A stretch of DNA of 64,000 nt from Thermincola carboxydiphila (GTDB taxonomy: Bacteria; Bacillota; Thermincolia; Thermincolales; UBA2595), in assembly GCA_016841725.1 (NCBI GenBank), contig JAENYP010000002.1, positions 156,767 to 220,766 of the forward strand. Direction: 5' to 3'. The notes under the pieces are model-generated. The model saw only the letters and a program-made list of their open reading frames with translations, was not told the DNA's origin and made no database searches. Both the position numbers and the translations under genes were made by a program. Shown here piece by piece: positions 41,118-53,163 of the stretch. Numbering within the stretch: the first letter of the stretch is position 1; the number at the start of each line of letters is the position of its first letter.

Positions 41118-42596
41118 TTAAATTATTATACAGATTAGGCCTCCACTGCCGTCATTGACAATCCTCTGCAGGGTTTCCTGGAGTTTGGCCTGGGCATTTT
41201 CCGGCATCCGGTGCAGTTTGTTTTGGATGCCTTCCCTAACCAGGTCATGGAGTGATTTGCCGAAAATGTTTGACTCCCAGATTTTTTGCGGGTTTTCCTC
41301 AAATTCATTGAGCATGTAACGAACCAATTCCTCACACTGTTTTTCGGTTCCTATTATAGGAGTCAGTTCAGTGGTAATATCAGCCCTGATAATATGAAGG
41401 GACGGGGCGCTTGCCTTAAGCCTGACACCAAACCTGCTGCCCTGACGAATCAGTTCCGGTTCTTCCAGGTTCATTTCATCGAGACGCGGGGTTACCACAC
41501 CATATCCACTTTCCTTTACTTCATTAAGGGCTGAAGCGACTTTGTCAAACTCCTTCTTCGCAAAGCTGAGGTCTCTCATCAGGCGCAGCAGGGTATGTTC
41601 ACCTTCAATTTCAAAACCGGAGACCTCCTGGAGAATCTGGTAAAACATGCCCTCCTCAGCATCCATGTCGATAGTGGCAATACCTGTGCCCATATTCATT
41701 TCACTAAGGTTTACCATCCCAACAAAATCAAAAGTCCCCAGCTGGTCAACGGCATAGTCAATATCCCGCAACCGGCGGACTCCCCTTACGGTATTACGTA
41801 CAGCATCCTCAAATTTTTCCCGAAGCCAGTGCTTCTCTTCCAACTCCTCGATCCACTTGGGGAGGGTAATATTAACTTCATTGACGGGGAATTCATAGAG
41901 GATTTCTTCCAGGATTTCCAGGATATCTTCCGGCATCATTTCGGCAACATCCAAACTCAGAATAGGAACATTATACTTTTCCCGCAGCGACTCAGCCAGT
42001 TCCTGGGTTTCGGGAGCCTTGGGCTTGATAGAATTCAAGACGACAATGAAGGGTTTGTCAAGTTCCTTAAGTTCTTCCACTACCCGTTCTTCAGCCGGAA
42101 TATAATTGGCTCTGGGAATCTCGGTGATACTCCCGTCAGTGGTAACTACCAGCCCAATAGTTGAATGGTCGGCAATAACCTTCCGGGTTCCCATTTCCGC
42201 TGCCTCCTGAAAGGGTATCTCCTCATCAAACCAGGGTGTTCTAACCATTCTTGGGCCCTCGTTCTCCTCATAGCCCAAGGCTCCTTCCACAGAATAACCA
42301 ACACAGTCGACAACCCGCATTTTCACCTTCAAGCTGGCGCTCACAGGAATCTCCACAGCTTCCTGGGGTATAAACTTGGGTTCGGTTGTCATTATCGTCC
42401 GGCCGGCGCCGCTTTGAGGCAGCTCATCCCTGGCCCTCTCCCTGTCATGCACATTCTTAATATTATTGATAACCAACAGGTCCATAAAACGCTTAATAAA
42501 AGTTGACTTACCAGTCCTCACCGGGCCGACGACACCCAAATAGATGTCTCCCCCGGTTCTCTCAGCTATGTCCCGAAAGATGTCCAGTTTTTCCAA
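41118..42596 (-). CDS. spoIVA: stage IV sporulation protein A (spore coat basement ATPase)
   Basis: SpoIVA polymerises on the forespore surface with ATP hydrolysis and anchors the coat. The 492 residues match the family size. They start MEKLDIFRDIAERTGGDIY with Walker A GPVRTGKST near residue 24, switch-like RTIMTTEPKFIP near 66, a Walker-B-type VVDCVGYSVEGA and IVVLNSIKPK near 187. The C-terminus (NDGSGGLICIII) is the anchoring end. The start is TTG at 42596 with AAAGGAG upstream. In Bacillus this gene follows gpsA directly; here about 10.5 kb intervenes. Confidence 0.97.
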   Translation of the reverse strand: MEKLDIFRDIAERTGGDIYLGVVGPVRTGKSTFIKRFMDLLVINNIKNVHDRERARDELPQSGAGRTIMTTEPKFIPQEAVEIPVSASLKVKMRVVDCVGYSVEGALGYEENEGPRMVRTPWFDEEIPFQEAAEMGTRKVIADHSTIGLVVTTDGSITEIPRANYIPAEERVVEELKELDKPFIVVLNSIKPKAPETQELAESLREKYNVPILSLDVAEMMPEDILEILEEILYEFPVNEVNITLPKWIEELEEKHWLREKFEDAVRNTVRGVRRLRDIDYAVDQLGTFDFVGMVNLSEMNMGTGIATIDMDAEEGMFYQILQEVSGFEIEGEHTLLRLMRDLSFAKKEFDKVASALNEVKESGYGVVTPRLDEMNLEEPELIRQGSRFGVRLKASAPSLHIIRADITTELTPIIGTEKQCEELVRYMLNEFEENPQKIWESNIFGKSLHDLVREGIQNKLHRMPENAQAKLQETLQRIVNDGSGGLICIII

Positions 42597-42815
42597 CTAC
42601 ACACACTCCTTTCTTGCAAATTCTATTTGAAGTGTTAAGGTTTTTCCCCTGGCCATCCCTCCTCTGCGGACACTTTAATAAGATATCAAATAAAATTCAA
42701 ATTTGGTAATAGCAGGTCCCTGAATTTTTTACCATTGGCATACATTAACAATATATATATATGAGACTAACCCCCCTTTATGACGGTAAAAAAAAAGAAT
42801 TTAAAATTAAATAAC

Positions 42816-42844
42816 TTGATAGATATCGTCTATATTGCTATACT
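42816..42844 (+). promoter_or_regulatory. sigma-A promoter of typA
   Basis: TTGATA (42816-42821) and TATACT (42839-42844) are spaced by 17 bases, 35 bases upstream of the ATG. The rest of the 283-base spacer holds AT-rich sequence and no gene. Confidence 0.8.
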
Positions 42845-42879
42845 AAGAATGTTGCGTTTAATAAGGAGTGTGATTTTTA

Positions 42880-44724
42880 ATGAGTCATGAAACAGAAGTT
42901 ATAAATATAAGGAACATTGCCATTATCGCCCACGTGGACCACGGAAAAACAACCCTGGTCGACTGTATGCTCAGACAGAGCGGAATATTCAGGGATAATG
43001 AGACAGTTGCGGAGCGAATCATGGATTCCAATGACCTCGAAAGAGAACGCGGCATCACAATTTTGGCCAAAAACACAGCGGTCATGTACAATGAAATTAA
43101 GATAAACATTGTTGACACACCAGGCCATGCCGATTTTGGTGGAGAGGTTGAACGCGCCCTCAGCATGGTGGATGGCGTACTGCTGCTGGTAGATGCCTTT
43201 GAAGGCCCCATGCCGCAAACCAAGTTTGTGCTGCGCAAAGCCCTGGAAGCAAGTCTGAAACCCGTAGTTGTGGTTAATAAGGCAGACAGGCCTGATGCCA
43301 GGCCTGATGAGGTTATCGACGAGGTTTTTGAACTTTTCCTGGAACTTGGCGCCACCGATGAACAGCTGGACTTTCCCGTTATTTACGCCTCTGCAAGAGA
43401 CGGCTGGGCCAAAGAAGAACTTGAAGACAGCAGTACTAATATGAAACCACTGTTCGAAACAATTATTTCCAGCGTGGATGCTCCTTCCTGTGATGCAGCG
43501 GGGACCTTTCAAATGCTGGTGGCAAACCTGGAATATGATAATTACCTTGGCAAGTATGCTGTCGGCAGAATAAACCGGGGCACCGTTTCCCAGTCTGACA
43601 CAATTGCGGTAATCAGACATGACGGAACTATAGCGCGGGGCAAAATTGCGAGGCTTTTCACTTACTCAGGGCTGAAAAAAACTGAGATCAACACTGCTGA
43701 AGCAGGTGACATCATTGCCGTGGTCGGCTTTGAGGATGTCAACATCGGGGAGACACTGGCAGATATCAACAATCCCCAGCAGCTTCCGGTAATCACTGTC
43801 GATGAACCCACCCTTTCCATGCATTTCATGGTCAACAACAGTCCCTTTGCCGGAAGAGAAGGCGAGTTCGTCACCTCCCGCAAATTAAGGGAAAGGCTCT
43901 ACCGGGAACTGGACGCTAATGTCAGCCTGAGGGTGGAGGATACTGACAGCGCCGATGCCCTGAAGGTTTCGGGACGTGGTGAACTTCACCTGTCCATCCT
44001 GATTGAAAACATGAGGCGTGAGGGTTACGAAATGCAGGTTTCCAAACCGGAGGTTATCTATAAAACCATAGACGGTATACTCATGGAACCAATGGAATAC
44101 CTGGTGATAGATGTCCCTGAGGATGCCATGGGAACGGTTATTGAAAATCTGGGCAAACGCAAAGGTGAAATGATTAATATGACCCCGATAAGCACCAGTG
44201 AGACAAGAATCGAGTTTAACATTCCCGCCAGGGGACTAATCGGGTTCAGATCCGAGTTTCTCACCGAAACCAGGGGCCGGGGGATTATGAGCCACAACTT
44301 TAACGGCTATGAGACATACAAAGGAGAGATCAAGGCCAGATACAATGGAGCCCTGATAGCATGGGAAACCGGAGAGGCAGTAACCTATGGGATGCTGCAG
44401 GTTGAAGACCGGGGCATACTTTTTATAAAGCCCGGAACAAAGGTATATGAAGGTATGATTGTAGGCATGAACAACCGTGACAAAGACCTTGAGATTAATG
44501 TCTGCAAGCGCAAACACCTGACCAACATGAGGGCCAGCGGTTCCGACGAGACACTGAAACTGAAGGAACCAAGGCTGCTGTCCCTTGAAGAGTCCATTGA
44601 GTTTATTAATGATGATGAACTTGTTGAGATAACGCCAACAAATGTGCGGATGAGGAAAAAGGTCCTGAATAAAGATGAACGGGCCAAGTACAATAAGCAG
44701 TTAAGTGTAATGAAGGCCCAGTAG
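42880..44724 (+). CDS. typA: ribosome-associated GTPase TypA/BipA
   Basis: TypA is an EF-G-like GTPase involved in ribosome assembly and stress growth. The 614 residues show G1 AHVDHGKTTL near residue 16, the RERGITILAKNT switch near 48, DTPGHADFGGEVERAL (G3) near 74 and NKADRPDARP (G4) near 129. EF-G-like domains III and V and the BipA C-terminal domain (FIKPGTKVYEGMIVG) follow. AAGGAG precedes the ATG. It is divergent from spoIVA. Confidence 0.97.
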   Translation: MSHETEVINIRNIAIIAHVDHGKTTLVDCMLRQSGIFRDNETVAERIMDSNDLERERGITILAKNTAVMYNEIKINIVDTPGHADFGGEVERALSMVDGVLLLVDAFEGPMPQTKFVLRKALEASLKPVVVVNKADRPDARPDEVIDEVFELFLELGATDEQLDFPVIYASARDGWAKEELEDSSTNMKPLFETIISSVDAPSCDAAGTFQMLVANLEYDNYLGKYAVGRINRGTVSQSDTIAVIRHDGTIARGKIARLFTYSGLKKTEINTAEAGDIIAVVGFEDVNIGETLADINNPQQLPVITVDEPTLSMHFMVNNSPFAGREGEFVTSRKLRERLYRELDANVSLRVEDTDSADALKVSGRGELHLSILIENMRREGYEMQVSKPEVIYKTIDGILMEPMEYLVIDVPEDAMGTVIENLGKRKGEMINMTPISTSETRIEFNIPARGLIGFRSEFLTETRGRGIMSHNFNGYETYKGEIKARYNGALIAWETGEAVTYGMLQVEDRGILFIKPGTKVYEGMIVGMNNRDKDLEINVCKRKHLTNMRASGSDETLKLKEPRLLSLEESIEFINDDELVEITPTNVRMRKKVLNKDERAKYNKQLSVMKAQ

Positions 44725-44731
44725 AAAAAAA

Positions 44732-44768
44732 TAAGCCGGCGATGCCAATTTTGGGCATCGCCGGCTTA
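44732..44768. terminator. bidirectional terminator between typA and the mannoside operon
   Basis: TAAGCCGGCGATGCC and GGCATCGCCGGCTTA form a perfect 15-bp stem with a seven-base loop. The minus strand has TTTTTTT after it. Confidence 0.92.
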
Positions 44769-44810
44769 ACCATAGATATGTAAATTATCCGTTTTATCGG
44801 GAAAGAGGCC

Positions 44811-46214
44811 TTACGCGTTGTTCGCATAGCGTATGGCTTTATTTATGATTTCCTTCAGACGGCCGGGGTCATTAGCCTCGGCATAGATACGCACGATAGG
44901 CTCCGTACCGGAAGCCCGGAACATTACCCAGCCATCTGACAAATATAGTTTGCATCCATCTGATAAATTGCTTGACAAAAACTCCAGCCCATCCAACATC
45001 CTCGGCGGGTTCCCGGCAAGTGTCTTCATGAGGTGATCCTTTTTTTTTAATTCCAGGTGGATATCTTCCCGTTCATAACAGAACCGGCCCAGTTCCCCCA
45101 TCATCTCATCAATTAACTGGCCCAGCGTTTTGCCATAAGCGGCCACCATCTCAATTAAAAAATATCCCAGCATAATGCCATCCCGTTCAGGGATATAACC
45201 CTTCAGACCAATGCCGCCTGACTCCTCACCACCAAGCAAAATATCCTCATTTAGCATCAGTGTAGTGATATACTTAAACCCAACCGGCGTTTCGTAAAGC
45301 TTCAGGCCATACTTCCCGGCGACTTGCTTCACCAGTTCCGATACTGTTACCGTCAGCGCAATCCCACCGGTCCAGCCACGCTTTTCAACAAAATATTTTA
45401 TCAGGAGGGCCATAATCTGGTGGGGGTTGATGAAACGGCCGTCGGCGTCCATAGCGCCTATGCGGTCACCATCACCATCTGTGGCCAGGCCGATGTATGC
45501 CTGATGTTCCCCCATGGCCTGCCTTAGTGCAGCAAGGTTTTTCTCAATCGGCTCCGGGTTTGTGCCGCCAAAGGAGGGATTAAACTCACTGTGCAGTTCA
45601 AGCAGATTCAGCCCGTATTCCTTTGCCAGTTCACTCGGGTATCCCATCGCCGCGCCGTGCATGACATCAAATATGACTTTTCCCTTTAAACCAGCCAGCG
45701 ACTTTTTATCCAGCATCGCCTTGACGTGCTCAAGATATGCAGCGCGCGGCGAAAAATACTGTACCTCCGGCGACATGGCCGGCTTGGGAAACGTACGTCC
45801 GCTCTCTTCCAGCGGCCTGACACATTTCTCAATTTCGGTCATGATTTCCGGCGAAGCAGACCCGCCGTAAGCGGCTTTAAATTTGAGCCCATTATATTCG
45901 CCCGGATTGTGGCTTGCCGTAATCATGACACCACCGGCAGCGGCGTAATCCCTTACGTGCCAGCTAAGCGCCGGGGTTGTCAGAATACCATCGGCCAGCC
46001 AAACCTTAATTCCTTTACCGGCCAGCACTGCCGCACAGTCAGCCGCATACTCCGCCGACAAAAACCGGGCATCATAACCAACCACAATGCCTTTTCCGGC
46101 TTCGCGGTTACTGTTAACATAGTTTGCAATGCCTTCAGAAACCAGGCGGACATTATTAAAAGTGAAATCTTCACTGATAATCCCGCGCCAACCGTCAGTA
46201 CCAAATTCTATCAC
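44811..46214 (-). CDS. manB: phosphoglucomutase/phosphomannomutase
   Basis: The enzyme interconverts hexose 6- and 1-phosphates; with ManC next door, mannose 1-phosphate is the likely product. The 467 residues begin IEFGTDGWRGIISEDF, and show the phosphoserine loop ITASHNPGEYNGLKFK near residue 99, the metal loop ATDGDGDRIGAMD near 244, sugar loop GGEESGGIGL near 333 and phosphate loop RASGTEPIVRIYAEA near 440. All are intact. It is the last gene of a five-gene unit and lies 16 bases after manC. A phosphoglucomutase cannot be excluded. Confidence 0.92.
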   Translation of the reverse strand: MIEFGTDGWRGIISEDFTFNNVRLVSEGIANYVNSNREAGKGIVVGYDARFLSAEYAADCAAVLAGKGIKVWLADGILTTPALSWHVRDYAAAGGVMITASHNPGEYNGLKFKAAYGGSASPEIMTEIEKCVRPLEESGRTFPKPAMSPEVQYFSPRAAYLEHVKAMLDKKSLAGLKGKVIFDVMHGAAMGYPSELAKEYGLNLLELHSEFNPSFGGTNPEPIEKNLAALRQAMGEHQAYIGLATDGDGDRIGAMDADGRFINPHQIMALLIKYFVEKRGWTGGIALTVTVSELVKQVAGKYGLKLYETPVGFKYITTLMLNEDILLGGEESGGIGLKGYIPERDGIMLGYFLIEMVAAYGKTLGQLIDEMMGELGRFCYEREDIHLELKKKDHLMKTLAGNPPRMLDGLEFLSSNLSDGCKLYLSDGWVMFRASGTEPIVRIYAEANDPGRLKEIINKAIRYANNA

Positions 46215-46230
46215 TGCAGTCCCCCCTCTT

Positions 46231-47619
46231 CTATGTGCTTACCCGGCCATACATATCTTCAAATCGTACGATATCGTCCTCACCCAGATAACTGCCGTTT
46301 TGCACCTCAATAATCTCAAGACGAAGCCTGCCCGGATTTTCCAGACGGTGTTTGGTCGTTTGCGGCACAAACACGCTTTCGTTCTCGTGGACCATCTGTT
46401 GGGTTTCACCGATAGTCACCTTTGCTGTACCACTGATAACGATCCAATGCTCACTCCTGTGATAATGCATCTGCAGGCTAAGTACCTGCCCCGGATTAAC
46501 AACGATCTTCTTCATTTTATAGCCCTGCCCGGAACTTAGCACCGTATAGTGCCCCCAAGGGCGATATATGGTTGTATGCTCATCCGCTTCCACCCGGCCC
46601 TGTGCCGTGAGTTCACTCACCAAGTCTTTTACCTTCTGCGACTCGCCCTTTTTGGCGACTAAGATAACATCGTCTGTCTCTACTACCAAGAGATCTTCCA
46701 GCCCAATACCGGCGATAAGACGGCTGTGTCCCAAAATCAATGTATCTGAACAGTCAATGGGAATACAGTCACCCTGAATAGCATTGCCATTCTCATCTTT
46801 ATCCAATACGTTAAAGATGGCATCCCACGAGCCGATGTCACTCCATTCTGTCGTAAGCGGCGACATCACCACCTGTTTCGATTTCTCAACTATGGCATAG
46901 TCAATGGAGATGTTAGGCATTTCAGCGAAATTATCCGTCATGGTTCCCAGGACCGTGTCAGAGAGTGCGTAAATATCCGGCTGATGTACCCGTAACTCAT
47001 CCATAAGACAGCCAATTGTAAATACAAACATCCCGGAATTCCAATAGTAACTCCCACCGGTGAGATAAGCCTCGGCCGTTACCCGGTTCGGCTTCTCATG
47101 GAACGACTCAACGGCAAAACCACTGCCCAATGGCTGGCCGGCCTGAATATAACCATAGCCGGTTTCCGGACTATCCGGCTTTACACCAAGCGTTACGAGT
47201 TTGTTCATCTTAGCCATGTTTAATGCCTGGCGCAGATTGGCAGTAAATGTTTCCACTGATCGGATGATATGGTCGGCGGGAGTCACAACTACCACCTCAT
47301 CCAAACCGCAGCCCAGTCGATCCACGCAATACCTGGCCGCTAAGGCAATGGCCGGTGCGGTATTCCGCGCCACAGGCTCCAGCAAAACATGTGCTTCTTG
47401 GGCCTGGGATGCGATCAGCTCAGTTTTTACATGATGAACATATTCCTGATTGGTCACAATGACTATATCTGATGGCTTAACCAGTTCCGCAAACCGCCCT
47501 ATTGTCTGGGCCAGCAACGATTTTTCGCCATTCAATTTCAGAAACTGCTTAGGAAACCTGGTGCGCGAAAGAGGGAACAGGCGGCTTCCTCCCCCGCCTG
47601 CCAGAATGATGATTTTCAT
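46231..47619 (-). CDS. manC: mannose-1-phosphate guanylyltransferase, bifunctional ManC/AlgA type
   Basis: ManC makes GDP-mannose from mannose 1-phosphate and GTP. The 462 residues contain ILAGGGGSRLFPLSRTRFPKQF at the start (pyrophosphorylase signature), TPADHII near residue 100, FHEKPN near 169 and VVMSPLTTEWSDIGSWDA near 249. A C-terminal cupin domain (MHYHRSEHWIVISGTAKV near 394) is typical of the form with phosphomannose isomerase activity. Its start overlaps the end of manB's upstream partner arrangement: the gene overlaps the preceding (alpha/alpha)6 gene by four bases, so translation is coupled. Confidence 0.95.
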   Translation of the reverse strand: MKIIILAGGGGSRLFPLSRTRFPKQFLKLNGEKSLLAQTIGRFAELVKPSDIVIVTNQEYVHHVKTELIASQAQEAHVLLEPVARNTAPAIALAARYCVDRLGCGLDEVVVVTPADHIIRSVETFTANLRQALNMAKMNKLVTLGVKPDSPETGYGYIQAGQPLGSGFAVESFHEKPNRVTAEAYLTGGSYYWNSGMFVFTIGCLMDELRVHQPDIYALSDTVLGTMTDNFAEMPNISIDYAIVEKSKQVVMSPLTTEWSDIGSWDAIFNVLDKDENGNAIQGDCIPIDCSDTLILGHSRLIAGIGLEDLLVVETDDVILVAKKGESQKVKDLVSELTAQGRVEADEHTTIYRPWGHYTVLSSGQGYKMKKIVVNPGQVLSLQMHYHRSEHWIVISGTAKVTIGETQQMVHENESVFVPQTTKHRLENPGRLRLEIIEVQNGSYLGEDDIVRFEDMYGRVST

Positions 47620-48659
47620 AAAAGAATCACTTTCCTTTCATATTGCGCCAAAGCCAGGCCGGCAATGCAGTAGCCGACTATGCTTTCAGCCCCTTGGTTG
47701 CGGTTAAGGCCGTCGGGAGTAATGCCGTCACAACATCCCCCGGTCTCAGCGTCAATCAGGGATTCACGACAAGAGTTCTCGCCCAAATACCAGGCAAAAC
47801 TCCGCCGCGCCAGCTCCAGCATTGCGCTGTTTCCAGTGGCCTGATGTGCTGCCAGGTGAGCCAAAGCAGCCGCACATGCCTCAATAGGCTGCTCGTCATA
47901 CCTGGCCAACTCACCATGCCGCACAAACCATCCTTTACAACCCACCGGACGGAAACAGCCGTCATAAAAAGTAACCTGGTCAAGAAACTCCAGACTTCCC
48001 CGGGCCACATGAATCAATTTATCCTGTCCAAGGCGGCGGTAAGCCGCGAACAAAGACCACGGCAGCACTGCATTGCCATAAGTGAGACTGTTATCAAACC
48101 ACCGCCACTCCGTCTCCCCGGCGAAGTGTGCAAACCGGTTAACAAGTGAATCGGCCAGTCCGGACATGAGGCAATCAACTTCAGGCCCTTCAATAAGACT
48201 CAGGCCAATCAGGGCATACGCCTGGCCATGTGACCATTCCAGAGTGGGAATCCTGGGCAGGGCACGCTTAACTGCAGCAGTACACGCCTCTTTTACTCCA
48301 CAAGGCATAGCTGACGAGCTCAGTGTATATCCCAAAGCCCACAAGCAGCGGCCAAAACAATCCTCTGAGCCTTCTTTTTCCTTGAATATTCGACTATAAG
48401 TCATAAAATTCCGGAATCCGCCACTTTCATTCTGAGCATAGAGGACAAACGACAGATAGCGGTAGACCAGCCCAAGGTACTCAGGTTTCCGGCGGCTCTC
48501 ATAAAGCATCACCGCCATTATCAGAGCCCGGGCGTTGTCGTCGGTGGTATAACCCTCCAGCAAGTCCGGGAGGCTATAGCGCGCATGTTGGAACATGCCT
48601 GTGTCATCTGTCATTCGGAAGATATGGGCATCATTAAAGGTTTCTGCAAATTGATCCAC
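47616..48659 (-). CDS. (alpha/alpha)6-type protein of a GT4/GH130 mannoside cluster
   Basis: No enzyme name is recognised. The 347 residues lack signal or membrane segments and show repeated helix-pair motifs of an (alpha/alpha)6 barrel: YTTDDNARALIMAVMLYE near residue 36, EDCFGRCLWALGYTL near 97, SHGQAYALIGLSL near 142 and FDNSLTYGNAVLPW near 186. Such proteins often occur beside GT4 transferases and GH130 phosphorylases. The acidic and aromatic residues suggest glycan binding or hydrolysis, but the role is an inference. It overlaps GT4 upstream by 26 bases and manC downstream by four. Confidence 0.75.
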   Translation of the reverse strand: MDQFAETFNDAHIFRMTDDTGMFQHARYSLPDLLEGYTTDDNARALIMAVMLYESRRKPEYLGLVYRYLSFVLYAQNESGGFRNFMTYSRIFKEKEGSEDCFGRCLWALGYTLSSSAMPCGVKEACTAAVKRALPRIPTLEWSHGQAYALIGLSLIEGPEVDCLMSGLADSLVNRFAHFAGETEWRWFDNSLTYGNAVLPWSLFAAYRRLGQDKLIHVARGSLEFLDQVTFYDGCFRPVGCKGWFVRHGELARYDEQPIEACAAALAHLAAHQATGNSAMLELARRSFAWYLGENSCRESLIDAETGGCCDGITPDGLNRNQGAESIVGYCIAGLALAQYERKVILL

Positions 48660-49878
48660 TTATTCTACCCACTTTCCCGTCAATGGGGTACTTCAATGAT
48701 TTCGGCAGGGACACTCCCTTTTGTTTGGGTGCATCTATGAGATTTATGAACAGCCTGGTATAGCGACCGGCTACTTTGGCCCACGTCATCTGCTGTCCGA
48801 CTGCCAAGATCTTTTTTTCCATTTCTTTTTTTTGCCAAGGATTGTCAAGTACACCTCTGATGCACGACGCCAAAGATCCGGCATCCCTGAATTCACCAAG
48901 CATACCCCGGCCACCGCCCAGCAATTCCTGGGCATAACGATATGGGGTCGATACGACGACCCGCCCGCATCCCACAGCATACGCCAATGTCCCGCTGACC
49001 GCCTGCTCTTTGGACAGGTAAGGCGTCATGTACATGTCAGACAAATGGAGATATGTTATTACTTCATCTTTCGTCAGGTACTTGTCGACAAACCGGACAT
49101 TATCCCCCACCCCCAGGCGTTCCGCCAAGGCAATCAGGCTATCCCGGTAACTTTCGCCATCCAGTTGTTTAACACATGGGTGGGTTTTGCCGAGGATGAG
49201 ATAAACCAGATTTTTGTATTCCGGCACAACTTTGGCCACGGCTTCAATTCCATACTCCAGCCCTTTAGCCGGACTTAAGAGCCCAAAACTGCTTATGACC
49301 TGCTTGTTATCCAAGCCATGACTGACTTTTAGTTCTTCCCGCGGTTTAACTGACATGCTTGGAACCCCGTGGGGAATAACCATTACTTTACCTGGCTCAA
49401 TACCATACGTCTCTGTTAATAGCGGGACTGCACTTTCAGCCATCGTCACCACCATTGACGCCAGTCGTCCAAGTTCCCGTAAAACCAGTCTTTGTTTTTG
49501 GGATGGATTCATAAGTACTGTATGTGTCGTGATTATAAAAGGTACCGTTAAATTCTTGGCTAAATCGATAATGTATTCACCACAGTCTCCGCCAAATATC
49601 CCATATTCATGCTCAATAACCAGCAAGTCGGTATGTAGGTTTGCCCATCTGGCAGTTTGGCAGTAGCTGTCGCGGTTATGCTGGCTGAGTTTGGCCACCA
49701 CTCGCAAGTCCTCGTATTCCTCTGTATTGGTAACCGCAATAACCGTCGGTCGGAATACAGACCCTTTGTCGATTTCATTCACCAGGTCCTCCGTAAATGT
49801 AGCCAACCCACATACCCGAGGAGGATATGTGCTTAAAAACGTAATATTCCTTGTCTGGCTCACTTTTTTAATCTTCAC
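48634..49878 (-). CDS. family 4 glycosyltransferase
   Basis: The 414-residue GT-B enzyme has an N-terminal acceptor domain (ITFLSTYPPRVCGLATFTEDLV) and a donor domain with SSFGLLSPAKGLEYGIEAV near residue 207, DMYMTPYLSKEQAVSGTLAYAVGCGR near 282 and the sugar-nucleotide Glu region (SKEQAVSGTLAYA). With GDP-mannose genes in the same unit, it is probably a mannosyltransferase. The GTG at 49878 has AAGGAGG six bases upstream. It follows the GH130 gene with a spacer of 12-bp repeats. Confidence 0.88.
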   Translation of the reverse strand: MKIKKVSQTRNITFLSTYPPRVCGLATFTEDLVNEIDKGSVFRPTVIAVTNTEEYEDLRVVAKLSQHNRDSYCQTARWANLHTDLLVIEHEYGIFGGDCGEYIIDLAKNLTVPFIITTHTVLMNPSQKQRLVLRELGRLASMVVTMAESAVPLLTETYGIEPGKVMVIPHGVPSMSVKPREELKVSHGLDNKQVISSFGLLSPAKGLEYGIEAVAKVVPEYKNLVYLILGKTHPCVKQLDGESYRDSLIALAERLGVGDNVRFVDKYLTKDEVITYLHLSDMYMTPYLSKEQAVSGTLAYAVGCGRVVVSTPYRYAQELLGGGRGMLGEFRDAGSLASCIRGVLDNPWQKKEMEKKILAVGQQMTWAKVAGRYTRLFINLIDAPKQKGVSLPKSLKYPIDGKVGRISGSICRNL

Positions 49879-49908
49879 CGGCTCCCTCCTTTTCAACATT
49901 TCAGCATC

Positions 49909-49956
49909 ATCATTGTTGTCATCATTGTTGTCATTATTTTTGTCATTATTTTTGTC
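49909..49956 (-). repeat. 12-bp tandem repeat between GH130 and GT4
   Basis: Two copies of ATCATTGTTGTC and two of ATTATTTTTGTC (49909-49956) fill most of the 84-base spacer, ahead of the GT4 ribosome site. Confidence 0.9.
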
Positions 49957-49962
49957 ATTATT

Positions 49963-50970
49963 TCAGTAATTCACCTCATCCTTTGGCTCCGGGCACTTGC
50001 GCAGGTATTCCAGTAAATCGCTTATGGAAGCTGTAGCCAAAGCAATGCACGTATCCGCTCCCCCGTAATACATTTTTAGCAGTCCGGCCGTATCGTCCAT
50101 CACCCAGCCGCCCGAAAAAACCACATCGGCTACATCTCCCTGCCGTTCATACGGCGTCGCCGGGCCAAACACCCATTCATCACTCCGCCGCAAGACCTTA
50201 AGAGGATCTTCCAAATCAAGCAATGCCAACCCAAGCCGGTAAATCGCCCCGGCAGCTGTATGGCGCACCCCGTGGTATATCATAAGCCAGCCTTCAGCAG
50301 TCTCTAAGGGAGGGGCGCAAAGGCCGATTTTGCCGCCATCCCACCAGCCGCCTCGCCGGGCGTACATAAGGACCCTGCTATTGCTCCAATGGATCAGGTC
50401 ATCGGAGTATGACAGCCAGATGTGTGCGCCTGGTACGTAGTTAGTAACAATCGGACGATGGATGAGCGCCCATTTCCCATTAATCCGGCGCGGAAAAAGC
50501 GCGGCATCTTTATCTTCCGGCGGCATAACCGGTCCAATCCGTTTAAAATTTACGAAATCGTCCGTTAGCGCCATAGCTACGAGCGGCCCGCCGCGAGAAT
50601 AAGCAGTGTACGTGATAGCCCACTTGTCCAGTTCCCCAAGCCAAGAAATCCGAGGGTCTTCAATCCCCCATCGTTCTTCAGGGTGACTATCCAGATCAGG
50701 CTTCATGGTCGGTACTGCGTCAATCTGCCAGTTGCCAACCCCATCTTCACTAATGGCCTTGGTAAGGTGGGAAAATCCCCGTCTGTCCTCCACCCGGGCA
50801 AGCAGCAGAACCTTCCCACGGAAATTAGTCGCCCCTGGATTGAACACGGTATGTGCTGGGTACGGCCAATCATTGGCCGTCAAAATCGGGTTGTTCGGAT
50901 TCCGCAGAAAAAGCTCTTTAAAGGTATTGCCATTGGTTTTCAGTTTAGTCTCAAATTTATTATGATTAAT
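49963..50970 (-). CDS. GH130 family glycoside phosphorylase (mannoside type)
   Basis: GH130 enzymes phosphorolyse beta-mannosides and release mannose 1-phosphate. The 335 residues show NPNNPIL near residue 25, FNPGATNF near 43, RVEDRRGFSHL near 54, the conserved GIEDPRISWL near 102, WALIHRP near 165 and the late MYYGGADTCIALATA. The frame has no ATG, GTG or TTG between the AGGAGG at 50979-50984 and these motifs. The codon at proper spacing (8 bases) is ATT at 50970, so ATT initiation is proposed; a TTG at 50883 would remove the NPNNPIL strand. It heads the mannoside operon. The product could be fed straight to ManC. Confidence 0.85.
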   Translation of the reverse strand: MNHNKFETKLKTNGNTFKELFLRNPNNPILTANDWPYPAHTVFNPGATNFRGKVLLLARVEDRRGFSHLTKAISEDGVGNWQIDAVPTMKPDLDSHPEERWGIEDPRISWLGELDKWAITYTAYSRGGPLVAMALTDDFVNFKRIGPVMPPEDKDAALFPRRINGKWALIHRPIVTNYVPGAHIWLSYSDDLIHWSNSRVLMYARRGGWWDGGKIGLCAPPLETAEGWLMIYHGVRHTAAGAIYRLGLALLDLEDPLKVLRRSDEWVFGPATPYERQGDVADVVFSGGWVMDDTAGLLKMYYGGADTCIALATASISDLLEYLRKCPEPKDEVNY

Positions 50971-51013
50971 TTAAAAAACCTCCTAAGTATACAATACACT
51001 TCTGTATGTCAAA

Positions 51014-51076
51014 GAATAAACGGCGCCGTAATCCAGGCGTATATTTAATACACCAGGTTTACAGCGCCGTTTATTC
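51014..51076 (-). terminator. long hairpin terminator after the GreA-like/TPR gene
   Basis: GAATAAACGGCGC and GCGCCGTTTATTC form a near-perfect outer stem; the interior also pairs (GTAAACCTGGTGTAT with ATACGCCTGGATTAC). On the minus strand TTTATTCTTT ends it. It isolates the two-gene unit from the mannoside operon. Confidence 0.7.
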
Positions 51077-51078
51077 CT

Positions 51079-52245
51079 TTAAGCACAATTCAATAAAGCA
51101 AGTATCCTGCTCTTCGTGTCCTTAGCCTGTGGATTATCAGAAAATGTATTCAATAGATCCGATATACAATTTAATGTTTTTTGCAGGTCGGTATTCATGT
51201 TCTTTTCCGCTATACTATTCCAAAGTTCAGCATATTGTTGGGCTTTTTCGACATCTCCGGTTTTAACATATACAGTCACCAATCCCTTGTAAGCCTCAAT
51301 TAACTCCTCTTCCCTACACTGCTGATCACGGCCGGTCTTTATCGCTTTGTTATAAAAGTTGATTGCTTCGCTAAAGACACCCAAATCAGTGGAGATTCTG
51401 CCCAAACCAGTATATGAACTATAAATATTACTGCCTATAGCCGGCGCCTCGTCCTCAATGGCAGCAGTTTCAAAATCGGCCTTAACTGTCATCAATATAT
51501 TTATCATGAATTTTACTTTGTTCATGAGACCCTTGTCAAATTTAAAATTAAGCAAATAGTTTAGTGCATTTATAGCATCAACAACAGAATCTGTATTCAG
51601 GTAACAAATTACCATTTTTTCAAGTATATCAATTGTATTTTCTGTGATATCTCCAGAATCCACAATAAACTCTTGAATACCGCTGACAGCTTTTAGGGCT
51701 TTTCGGTAATCGCCGTCATCCAGGTAAGGTATCATATCTGCCCCTTTAATCAGTTGTGCTTCCCGGCAAGAAACAGTTCCTCTTATTCTGGCAAACTCCG
51801 GTCTGCTTCTGGGGTGATATAATTTTACGACACTGCTGATTTCTTTATTTTTAAATTGACCCCTAATATCATCTTTACTACCAAGCACTTTTGTCCCCAC
51901 AAATTCTGTACAATCAAAGTCTTTGTATAGCTCGATTTCTATAATGCTGTCCTCGTCAACCCCGTGACAGGCCGCATTGTTTACTATCTTAACAATTGAG
52001 GCAGCTTCATATCCTTCAATTGAAACATTCTGATCCTTAACCCCGCCCCATAGAGCCTTTCCGGTTTTGCTGTTAAAACTAACGCAATTGTGAATAGACT
52101 CATCTTCAGAACTACCCACAATCTTAAAGGTTTCATAGGCCGTCTCTTTTTCGTCATTAACAGCATATTGATATCTAAGTGTCACAATACTATTCAATCT
52201 GACAGAGTTTCGCATGCTGCTTTTTTGTTCTGCTTTGAAACGCAT
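51079..52245 (-). CDS. GreA/GreB C-terminal-like domain fused to TPR-like repeats
   Basis: The function is unknown. The 388 residues start MRFKAEQKSSMRNSVRLN. Residues about 15-85 (VTLRYQY, then ETFKIVGSSEDES, VSFNSKTGKALWGGVKDQNVSI) follow the pattern of the GreA/GreB C-terminal FKBP-like domain, where lines read 'VG..EAD..N..IS..SP.G.AL.G...GD.V'. From about residue 200 on, paired helices (AINALNYLL, GLGRISTDLGVFSEAINFYNKAIK, GLVTVYVKTGDVEKAQQYAELWNSIAEK) look like TPRs. The usual Gre coiled coil is absent. AAGGAGG lies eight bases before the ATG at 52245. It is second in a two-gene AT-rich unit. Confidence 0.65.
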   Translation of the reverse strand: MRFKAEQKSSMRNSVRLNSIVTLRYQYAVNDEKETAYETFKIVGSSEDESIHNCVSFNSKTGKALWGGVKDQNVSIEGYEAASIVKIVNNAACHGVDEDSIIEIELYKDFDCTEFVGTKVLGSKDDIRGQFKNKEISSVVKLYHPRSRPEFARIRGTVSCREAQLIKGADMIPYLDDGDYRKALKAVSGIQEFIVDSGDITENTIDILEKMVICYLNTDSVVDAINALNYLLNFKFDKGLMNKVKFMINILMTVKADFETAAIEDEAPAIGSNIYSSYTGLGRISTDLGVFSEAINFYNKAIKTGRDQQCREEELIEAYKGLVTVYVKTGDVEKAQQYAELWNSIAEKNMNTDLQKTLNCISDLLNTFSDNPQAKDTKSRILALLNCA

Positions 52246-52313
52246 TTTGTGTTCCTCCTTTACAATCACAAGGCTTAATTATCGTTTATGCTTCCCTTTA
52301 AAATAGAGTTTGC

Positions 52314-53015
52314 TCATCGTGTATTACTTTCGCAATAATCACTATACATTTCTAACCATTTGCACCAGTCATAATCTGGCTGTTCTTTTAAAGTGTTAAC
52401 AATTCTGTTAAATGTTTCTTCATCTAATTTTAAATACGTATCGCCTGGCCGTGGTCTAAAATCTATTCCTGCTTCCTTAAGAGTCAGCCCTTCTTTCAAA
52501 CCCAAAATCTGTTTATGCGGAACAACATAAGGCCAGCGAGGATATTCCCGTTCTTGGTCAGGCCATCGTTTTGCACCTGTTTCAATGGTACCGGTAATCT
52601 CGGTTACAGTTACAATCCTTTTTATTGGATGGGTAAGGTAAACCAAACACAACATACCCGGCATCATACTTTTTGCTATGTTATATCTGTTTTTAGGAAA
52701 CGCAATCCTCTCAGGCGCCTCCCGAGTCCAATTCGCATATAAAATTTTCAGGCCATAAGAACTCCCAACCTGAAGTTCCTCACTTAACTCAGTTATTTGT
52801 TTGAGGGTAAATAACATTTGTCCTTTTGAGGTAAGCACAGGACTAACCTTGCCCTCCTGAACCCATCTTCTGACAGTTAACTCTGATTTACCCAATTCGT
52901 TTGCAGCCACATCTAAAGTAAGGTATATTTCTCTGTTCTCAGTTAAAATCTCAAGTTTCTGCTCAATTATTTTAAGTCTTCCTTTAATTTCCTCAATTTG
53001 TCTATTAGTATCCAC
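52314..53015 (-). CDS. HTH protein with EVE/PUA-like domain
   Basis: The function is unknown. The 233 residues begin with a short coiled coil (IEEIKGRLKIIEQKLEIL), then a MerR/excisionase-like helix-turn-helix (AANELGKSELTVRRWVQEGKVSPV, residues about 38-62). The C-terminal ~130 residues (LKILYANWTREAPERIAFP, PGMLCLVYLTHPIKRIVTVTEI, RWPYVVPHKQILGL) look like an EVE/PUA-type fold, used elsewhere to read modified bases. GGAGGG lies eight bases before GTG (53015) and five before TTG (53018). It has its own strong promoter. A base-modification-sensing regulator is possible but unproven. Confidence 0.6.
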   Translation of the reverse strand: MDTNRQIEEIKGRLKIIEQKLEILTENREIYLTLDVAANELGKSELTVRRWVQEGKVSPVLTSKGQMLFTLKQITELSEELQVGSSYGLKILYANWTREAPERIAFPKNRYNIAKSMMPGMLCLVYLTHPIKRIVTVTEITGTIETGAKRWPDQEREYPRWPYVVPHKQILGLKEGLTLKEAGIDFRPRPGDTYLKLDEETFNRIVNTLKEQPDYDWCKWLEMYSDYCESNTR

Positions 53016-53040
53016 CAAATAATCCCTCCATATACTTATG

Positions 53041-53069
53041 ATTATATGTTATTTTTAATCTTCAGTCAA
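53041..53069 (-). promoter_or_regulatory. sigma-A promoter of the HTH-EVE unit
   Basis: TTGACT (53064-53069) and TATAAT (53041-53046) on the minus strand are spaced by 17 bases. Just upstream, TTGATGATA and TAATATCAA form an imperfect inverted repeat (about 53071-53092), a possible operator for the HTH protein. Confidence 0.8.
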
Positions 53070-53163
53070 GTTGATATTATTTTTATCATCATTAACAAAG
53101 GGCATTCCAGATTAAAAAAAACGAACTGCAAGGTAATCACCTCACAGCTCAGCAAAACAGTCC

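Follow-up and report, generated by a model that had tools for sequence, protein, structure and literature searches.

Organization of the locus

We analyzed a 64-kb stretch of the Thermincola carboxydiphila genome (the window), in which two adjacent minus-strand genes, here termed P1 and P2, head a cassette of sugar genes (Table 1). The pair has the two lowest GC contents (38.5% for P1 and 38.4% for P2) among the 49 ORFs in the window that are 150 aa or longer (mean 47.6%, SD 3.3). Since the rest of the cassette has a GC content of 0.48–0.55, the AT-rich pair was probably added to an existing cassette. The sequence of the pair also shows a GGAGG ribosome site. The hairpin that follows P2 has 32-nt arms that are 84% complementary and is kept in three genomes, including paired changes; it folds there with energies near −46, −41 and −36 kcal/mol. 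The neighbouring gene gpsA has a separate terminator (53151–53122) upstream of the pair, which is therefore insulated on that side. A search of the window against Rfam returned tRNA only.

Table 1. Features of the P1-P2 unit and of the cassette behind it (window coordinates).
Feature	Coordinates	Strand	Remarks
Sigma-70-type promoter of the pair, TTGACT-N17-TATAAT	53041..53069	-	11/12 consensus matches; conserved in G005 and G009
P1	52314..53018	-	234 aa; short coiled coil (4-27), MerR/RacA/BldC-like HTH (32-83), EVE/YTH/ASCH-type PUA-like domain (86-212)
P2	51079..52245	-	388 aa from ATG (396 aa from a GTG start); GreA/GreB C-terminal-like domain (14-88), second conserved region (89-164), TPR-like helices (165-388); without Gre coiled coil
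Long hairpin with 3' U-rich tail, terminator/attenuator-like, between P2 and GH130	51011..51079	-	
GH130 mannoside phosphorylase gene	49963..50970	-	Pfam GH130 1.9e-52; apparent ATT start 50970-50968 after AGGAGG
GT4-type glycosyltransferase	48634..49899	-	cassette gene
Glycosidase-like protein	47616..48659	-	no Pfam match; marker of the widespread cassette
Mannose-1-phosphate guanylyltransferase/isomerase (ManC type)	46231..47619	-	missing from this position in the G009 cassette
Phosphoglucomutase/phosphomannomutase	44811..46214	-	last cassette gene

A first-pass annotation, made from the sequence alone, had described two AT-rich genes with their own promoter, strong ribosome sites and a long hairpin terminator, all of which were borne out. 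The operator that it considered possible remained unconfirmed and was dropped as a candidate: the words common to the P1 promoter and that of a distant homologue (genome G238, see below) are promoter-like only and differ in spacing (shuffle P ~0.04).

Domain composition of P1 and P2

The AF2 model of P1 has a mean pLDDT of 83.7. Foldseek matched its N-terminal part to the HTH structures of RacA and BldC (rmsd 1.2–1.7 Å over about 50 residues), and Pfam HTH_17/MerR_1 profiles matched at E 4e-4, below their curated cut-offs; together these results place the region in the MerR/RacA/BldC-type winged-HTH class. The C-terminal part matched the EVE entries 2gbs, 1zce and 1wmm, in addition to ASCH and YTH structures (probability 1.00, TM 0.36–0.42 over the query). 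Weak matches to the Pfam EVE profile (PF01878) were obtained for two of the nine P1 family members (best E 0.0052), with P1 itself unmatched, and sequence searches against solved structures gave no informative match for either P1 or P2. The HTH-EVE-like protein of the first-pass annotation is supported by predicted structure, in which a MerR/RacA/BldC-like HTH is followed by a candidate PUA-like EVE/YTH domain. From these domains we infer that P1 is a DNA-binding sensor.

Prokaryotic EVE-domain proteins include MarR-EVE and YafY-EVE operons and XRE-HTH-ASCH fusions, and often occur alongside restriction and toxin-antitoxin systems (PMC7641849). P1 resembles them in its predicted PUA-like EVE-type fold and its HTH partner, and is likewise a candidate reader of modified bases linked to a transcription regulator. 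Unlike in these systems, the HTH of P1 is MerR/RacA/BldC-like and fused N-terminally, and the partner of P1 is Gre-like; the term “GreA” is absent from the text of the EVE census (PMC7641849). EVE, ASCH and PUA folds are often RNA-binding, and P1 might instead sense the modification state of tRNA or rRNA and couple translation status to P2 at RNA polymerase. Its best structural matches do include YTH readers of m6A in RNA and ASCH proteins with reported RNase activity, but the HTH fused in P1 points to DNA, and we consider such an RNA-level role very improbable.

Residues 14–88 of P2 resemble the C-terminal domain of GreA/GreB, as indicated by Pfam GreA_GreB (E 1.1e-5 and 25.7 bits, just under the curated cut-off of 26.9), by NCBIfam GreA (2.4e-6) and by alignment with GreA using hhalign (96.8%, E 2.3e-10). 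A second conserved region and then TPR-like repeats follow the Gre-like region. The AF2 model of P2, built from three sequences, reached a pLDDT of 45, and its fold rests on sequence profiles; the earlier description of a GreA-C-like-TPR protein accordingly holds at the level of profile comparison and not at that of structure.

The C-terminal Gre-type domain of GreA/GreB and of Gre-fold secondary-channel factors such as Rnk and Gfh1 has a putative counterpart in P2. Unlike in these factors, the Gre-like domain stands at the N-terminus of P2. The N-terminal coiled coil, whose acidic tip enters the secondary channel, is absent, as the Gre-like region begins at residue 14 with nothing before it, and P2 is therefore not a Gre factor. 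The idea that P1 supplies the missing coiled coil was ruled out by hhalign (0.7% in a comparison of P1 with that element). In a search of 399 genomes from the phylum, the relatives of P2 beyond the three genomes with the pair were only GreA itself and generic TPR proteins, and a literature search for Gre-TPR fusions returned nothing relevant.

P2 evolves fast, at a dN/dS of about 0.3 against 0.08–0.12 for P1, a two- to threefold difference; purifying selection still acts on P2. Its first 164 residues are intact in three genomes. In genome G009, P2 (L005:6729-7446) terminates exactly where the second conserved region does, directly followed by the conserved hairpin; the TPR part was either lost in this genome or gained in the others.

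Distribution and horizontal transfer of the pair

We found the pair in three of the ten sampled genomes of the class, namely the present genome (G000), a congener (G005) and the metagenome-assembled genome Firmicutes bacterium HGW-Firmicutes-14 (G009), which belongs to another genus. This co-occurrence marks the pair as a real unit. All three copies head a cassette of GH130, GT4, glycosidase-like and phosphomannomutase genes, with ManC in two of the three. In G000 and G005 the block separates gpsA from typA, and in G009 it is found downstream of smpB; in a further congener (G006), gpsA adjoins typA with 139 bases between them and the block is absent.

DNA similarity starts just upstream of the P1 promoter. 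Between G000 and G009, dS is 0.64–0.90 for the cassette, P1 and P2, whereas it is 1.8–2.3 for gpsA, plsY, der and DUF512, which indicates that the block moved horizontally with the pair inside. The lower dS could partly reflect codon bias, although der, a vertical neighbour with low dN, does not show it. Instead of being self-contained, as had been proposed, the pair moves about as the first operon of a glycan cassette. The proposal of a moron-like insertion likewise found no support, as P1 and P2 had no homologues in phage, plasmid or viral-contig collections and the neighbours are gpsA, plsY, der and sugar genes.

Between G000 and G005, dS is 0.10–0.15 for the glycan genes and 0.31–0.36 for the pair. 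In the comparison of these two congeners (window 42500-50900 against L057), divergence is about 4% or less in most bins, and from 51 to 58.6 kb it is mostly 7–15%. The boundary falls just downstream of P2, as if a tract had recently been exchanged. The higher dS of the pair and this step at ~51 kb indicate that recombination can separate the pair from the sugar genes.

The 399 phylum genomes contained one further full-length P1 homologue (55%), in G238 and without P2. It sits beside Tn7-like tnsA, tnsB, tnsC and tniQ/tnsD genes and genes for a sigma factor, ImmA/IrrE, E1/JAB and JetC-like proteins (L053:18-14883), though its position may be beyond the end of the transposon. In G236, G504-G506 and G499 (L073-L076, L054), the C-terminal domain of P1 has relatives that lack the HTH and are not accompanied by P2; in G236 and G504-G506 the adjoining gene is conserved and appears AroM-like. 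A larger sample might show the pair elsewhere.

A role as a defence or counter-element module was weighed against these data, since the first-pass annotation had left open a regulatory or defence module. In such a system the EVE domain of P1 would recognise modified foreign DNA and P2 would hit phage transcription or cause dormancy via RNA polymerase, with the glycan cassette as their vehicle. The company that EVE domains keep elsewhere (PMC7641849), the AT-rich, patchy and horizontally transferred nature of the pair, the fast evolution of P2 and the Tn7-like, JetC-like and E1/JAB neighbours of the G238 homologue would all fit, the last being the one hint from genomic context. However, the pair comes with no nuclease, methylase or recognisable toxin, and PADLOC gave only weak generic matches to HTH (mads_1, MTase_II N-terminal HTH) and TPR families. 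The neighbours are house-keeping genes, phage, viral and plasmid homologues are lacking, all three copies occupy the same position in the sugar cassette, and the TPR part of P2 is missing from G009. We regard defence as unlikely, and the regulatory half of the earlier proposal as the better reading.

CIRCE operators upstream of related cassettes

The glycosidase-like marker protein of the cassette was found in 90 of 399 Bacillota genomes, and the cassette has its GH130 enzyme in common with mannoside phosphorylase clusters such as those of the beta-1,2-mannoside phosphorylases (PMC4264767). Across the GH130 cassettes sampled, only three carry the P1-P2 pair. The upstream regions of the six close pair-less cassettes (GH130 identity of at least 62%) differ from these in that four contain a CIRCE element, with one mismatch each, 109–339 bases upstream of GH130. 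The expectation from shuffled sequences was 0.017 CIRCE hits over all 16 upstream regions scanned. No CIRCE was found in the three pair-bearing cassettes or anywhere in the 64-kb window. The G087 CIRCE follows a TTGACA-17-TACAAT promoter, and the G087 leader beyond the CIRCE resembles the G009 leader beyond the hairpin. The pair and its hairpin thus occupy the position of the promoter and heat-shock operator of pair-less cassettes.

CIRCE is recognised by the HrcA repressor. CIRCE/HrcA-type operators stand before GH130-GT4-glycosidase-like cassettes in several Bacillota (L110:818-844; L111, L112, L114), which suggests that the sugar cassette may belong to a heat-shock regulon.

A putative regulator at the head of a mobile cassette

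We tentatively propose, with a confidence that falls a little short of even, that P1 and P2 form a small operon with a regulatory role, now the 5' leader of a mobile mannoside/GDP-mannose cassette whose earlier promoter and heat-shock operator it displaced. The MerR/BldC-like HTH would bring P1 to DNA, with the promoter of P1 itself as the probable site, and the EVE/YTH-type domain would act as the sensor; a modified base is the likeliest signal. P2 would dock on RNA polymerase through its Gre C-terminal-like domain. This step is suggested by the known role of Gre-family C-terminal domains, which bind RNA polymerase, and by Rnk, which binds the enzyme despite a short coiled coil and competes with Gre/DksA (PMC4598747). 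Without a coiled coil, P2 would not trigger transcript cleavage; its second region and TPR part may influence read-through of the long hairpin into GH130.

The read-through step was considered because no conserved consensus promoter was found between the hairpin and GH130. In G000, a possible promoter with short spacing (TTGACA-15-TATACT) does lie just before GH130; the cassette may thus be independent of the pair, which weakens the read-through reading. The absence of the TPR part from P2 of G009, the low confidence of the P2 model over its Gre-like domain and the ability of the pair and the glycan genes to separate also count against a regulatory role. In its most complete form, the proposal would have an HTH-EVE sensor of modified bases and a Gre-TPR factor without a coiled coil together set hairpin read-through into a mobile sugar cassette, in the manner of RfaH or LoaP but on a Gre basis and with the HrcA/CIRCE promoter displaced; we consider this full combination improbable.

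Elongation regulators such as RfaH, LoaP and UpxY/UpxZ are encoded first in polysaccharide operons, and the present arrangement is similar in that a candidate regulator heads a sugar cassette with a terminator-like hairpin behind it. UpxZ aside, those proteins are NusG paralogues, whereas P1 and P2 are not NusG-like: no NusG match, including to the NusG N-terminal domain, was obtained for either in Pfam or NCBIfam, and this candidate family was rejected. Antitermination by the pair is accordingly a hypothesis.

The pair could also be a neutral passenger that landed before GH130, in which case P1 would do no more than regulate itself and P2 would be an unrelated protein, either accessory or decaying. 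The higher dN/dS of P2 relative to P1, its lack of the TPR part in G009 and the pair's possession of its own promoter and terminator-like hairpin are in keeping with this. Against it stand the purifying selection on P2 and its intact first 164 residues, the conservation of synteny and hairpin across genera, and the location of the pair where pair-less cassettes have their promoter and operator. A passenger is in our judgement unlikely, if still deserving of attention. The pairing is real and unusual, its parts are ordinary, and it is best read as a cassette regulator.

If the regulatory reading is right, a mobile metabolic cassette has given up a heat-shock-type operator in favour of a dedicated regulator made of two proteins, and the RNA-polymerase docking domain of Gre has been reused without its catalytic finger. 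EVE-type base-reading domains could then also serve to control metabolic genes that move horizontally, beyond defence alone.

Two further observations concern the GH130 genes. The start of the cassette GH130, judged from the open frame and the N-termini of relatives, appears to be an ATT (window 50968-50970, minus strand; also L057, L005 and L110); in four genomes, a perfect AGGAGG stands 7–8 bases before it. None of ATG, GTG or TTG is compatible with the conserved N-terminus, and in G000 and G005 the codon just before the ATT is an in-frame TAA. AUU starts are rare in bacteria. The other GH130 paralogues of the genome and family have no pair-like neighbours; near one such gene of the same genome we observed long CRISPR-like repeat arrays (L081:1-7400), whose frames repeat FQSTHPQGVR/SIHAPAGGAT motifs.
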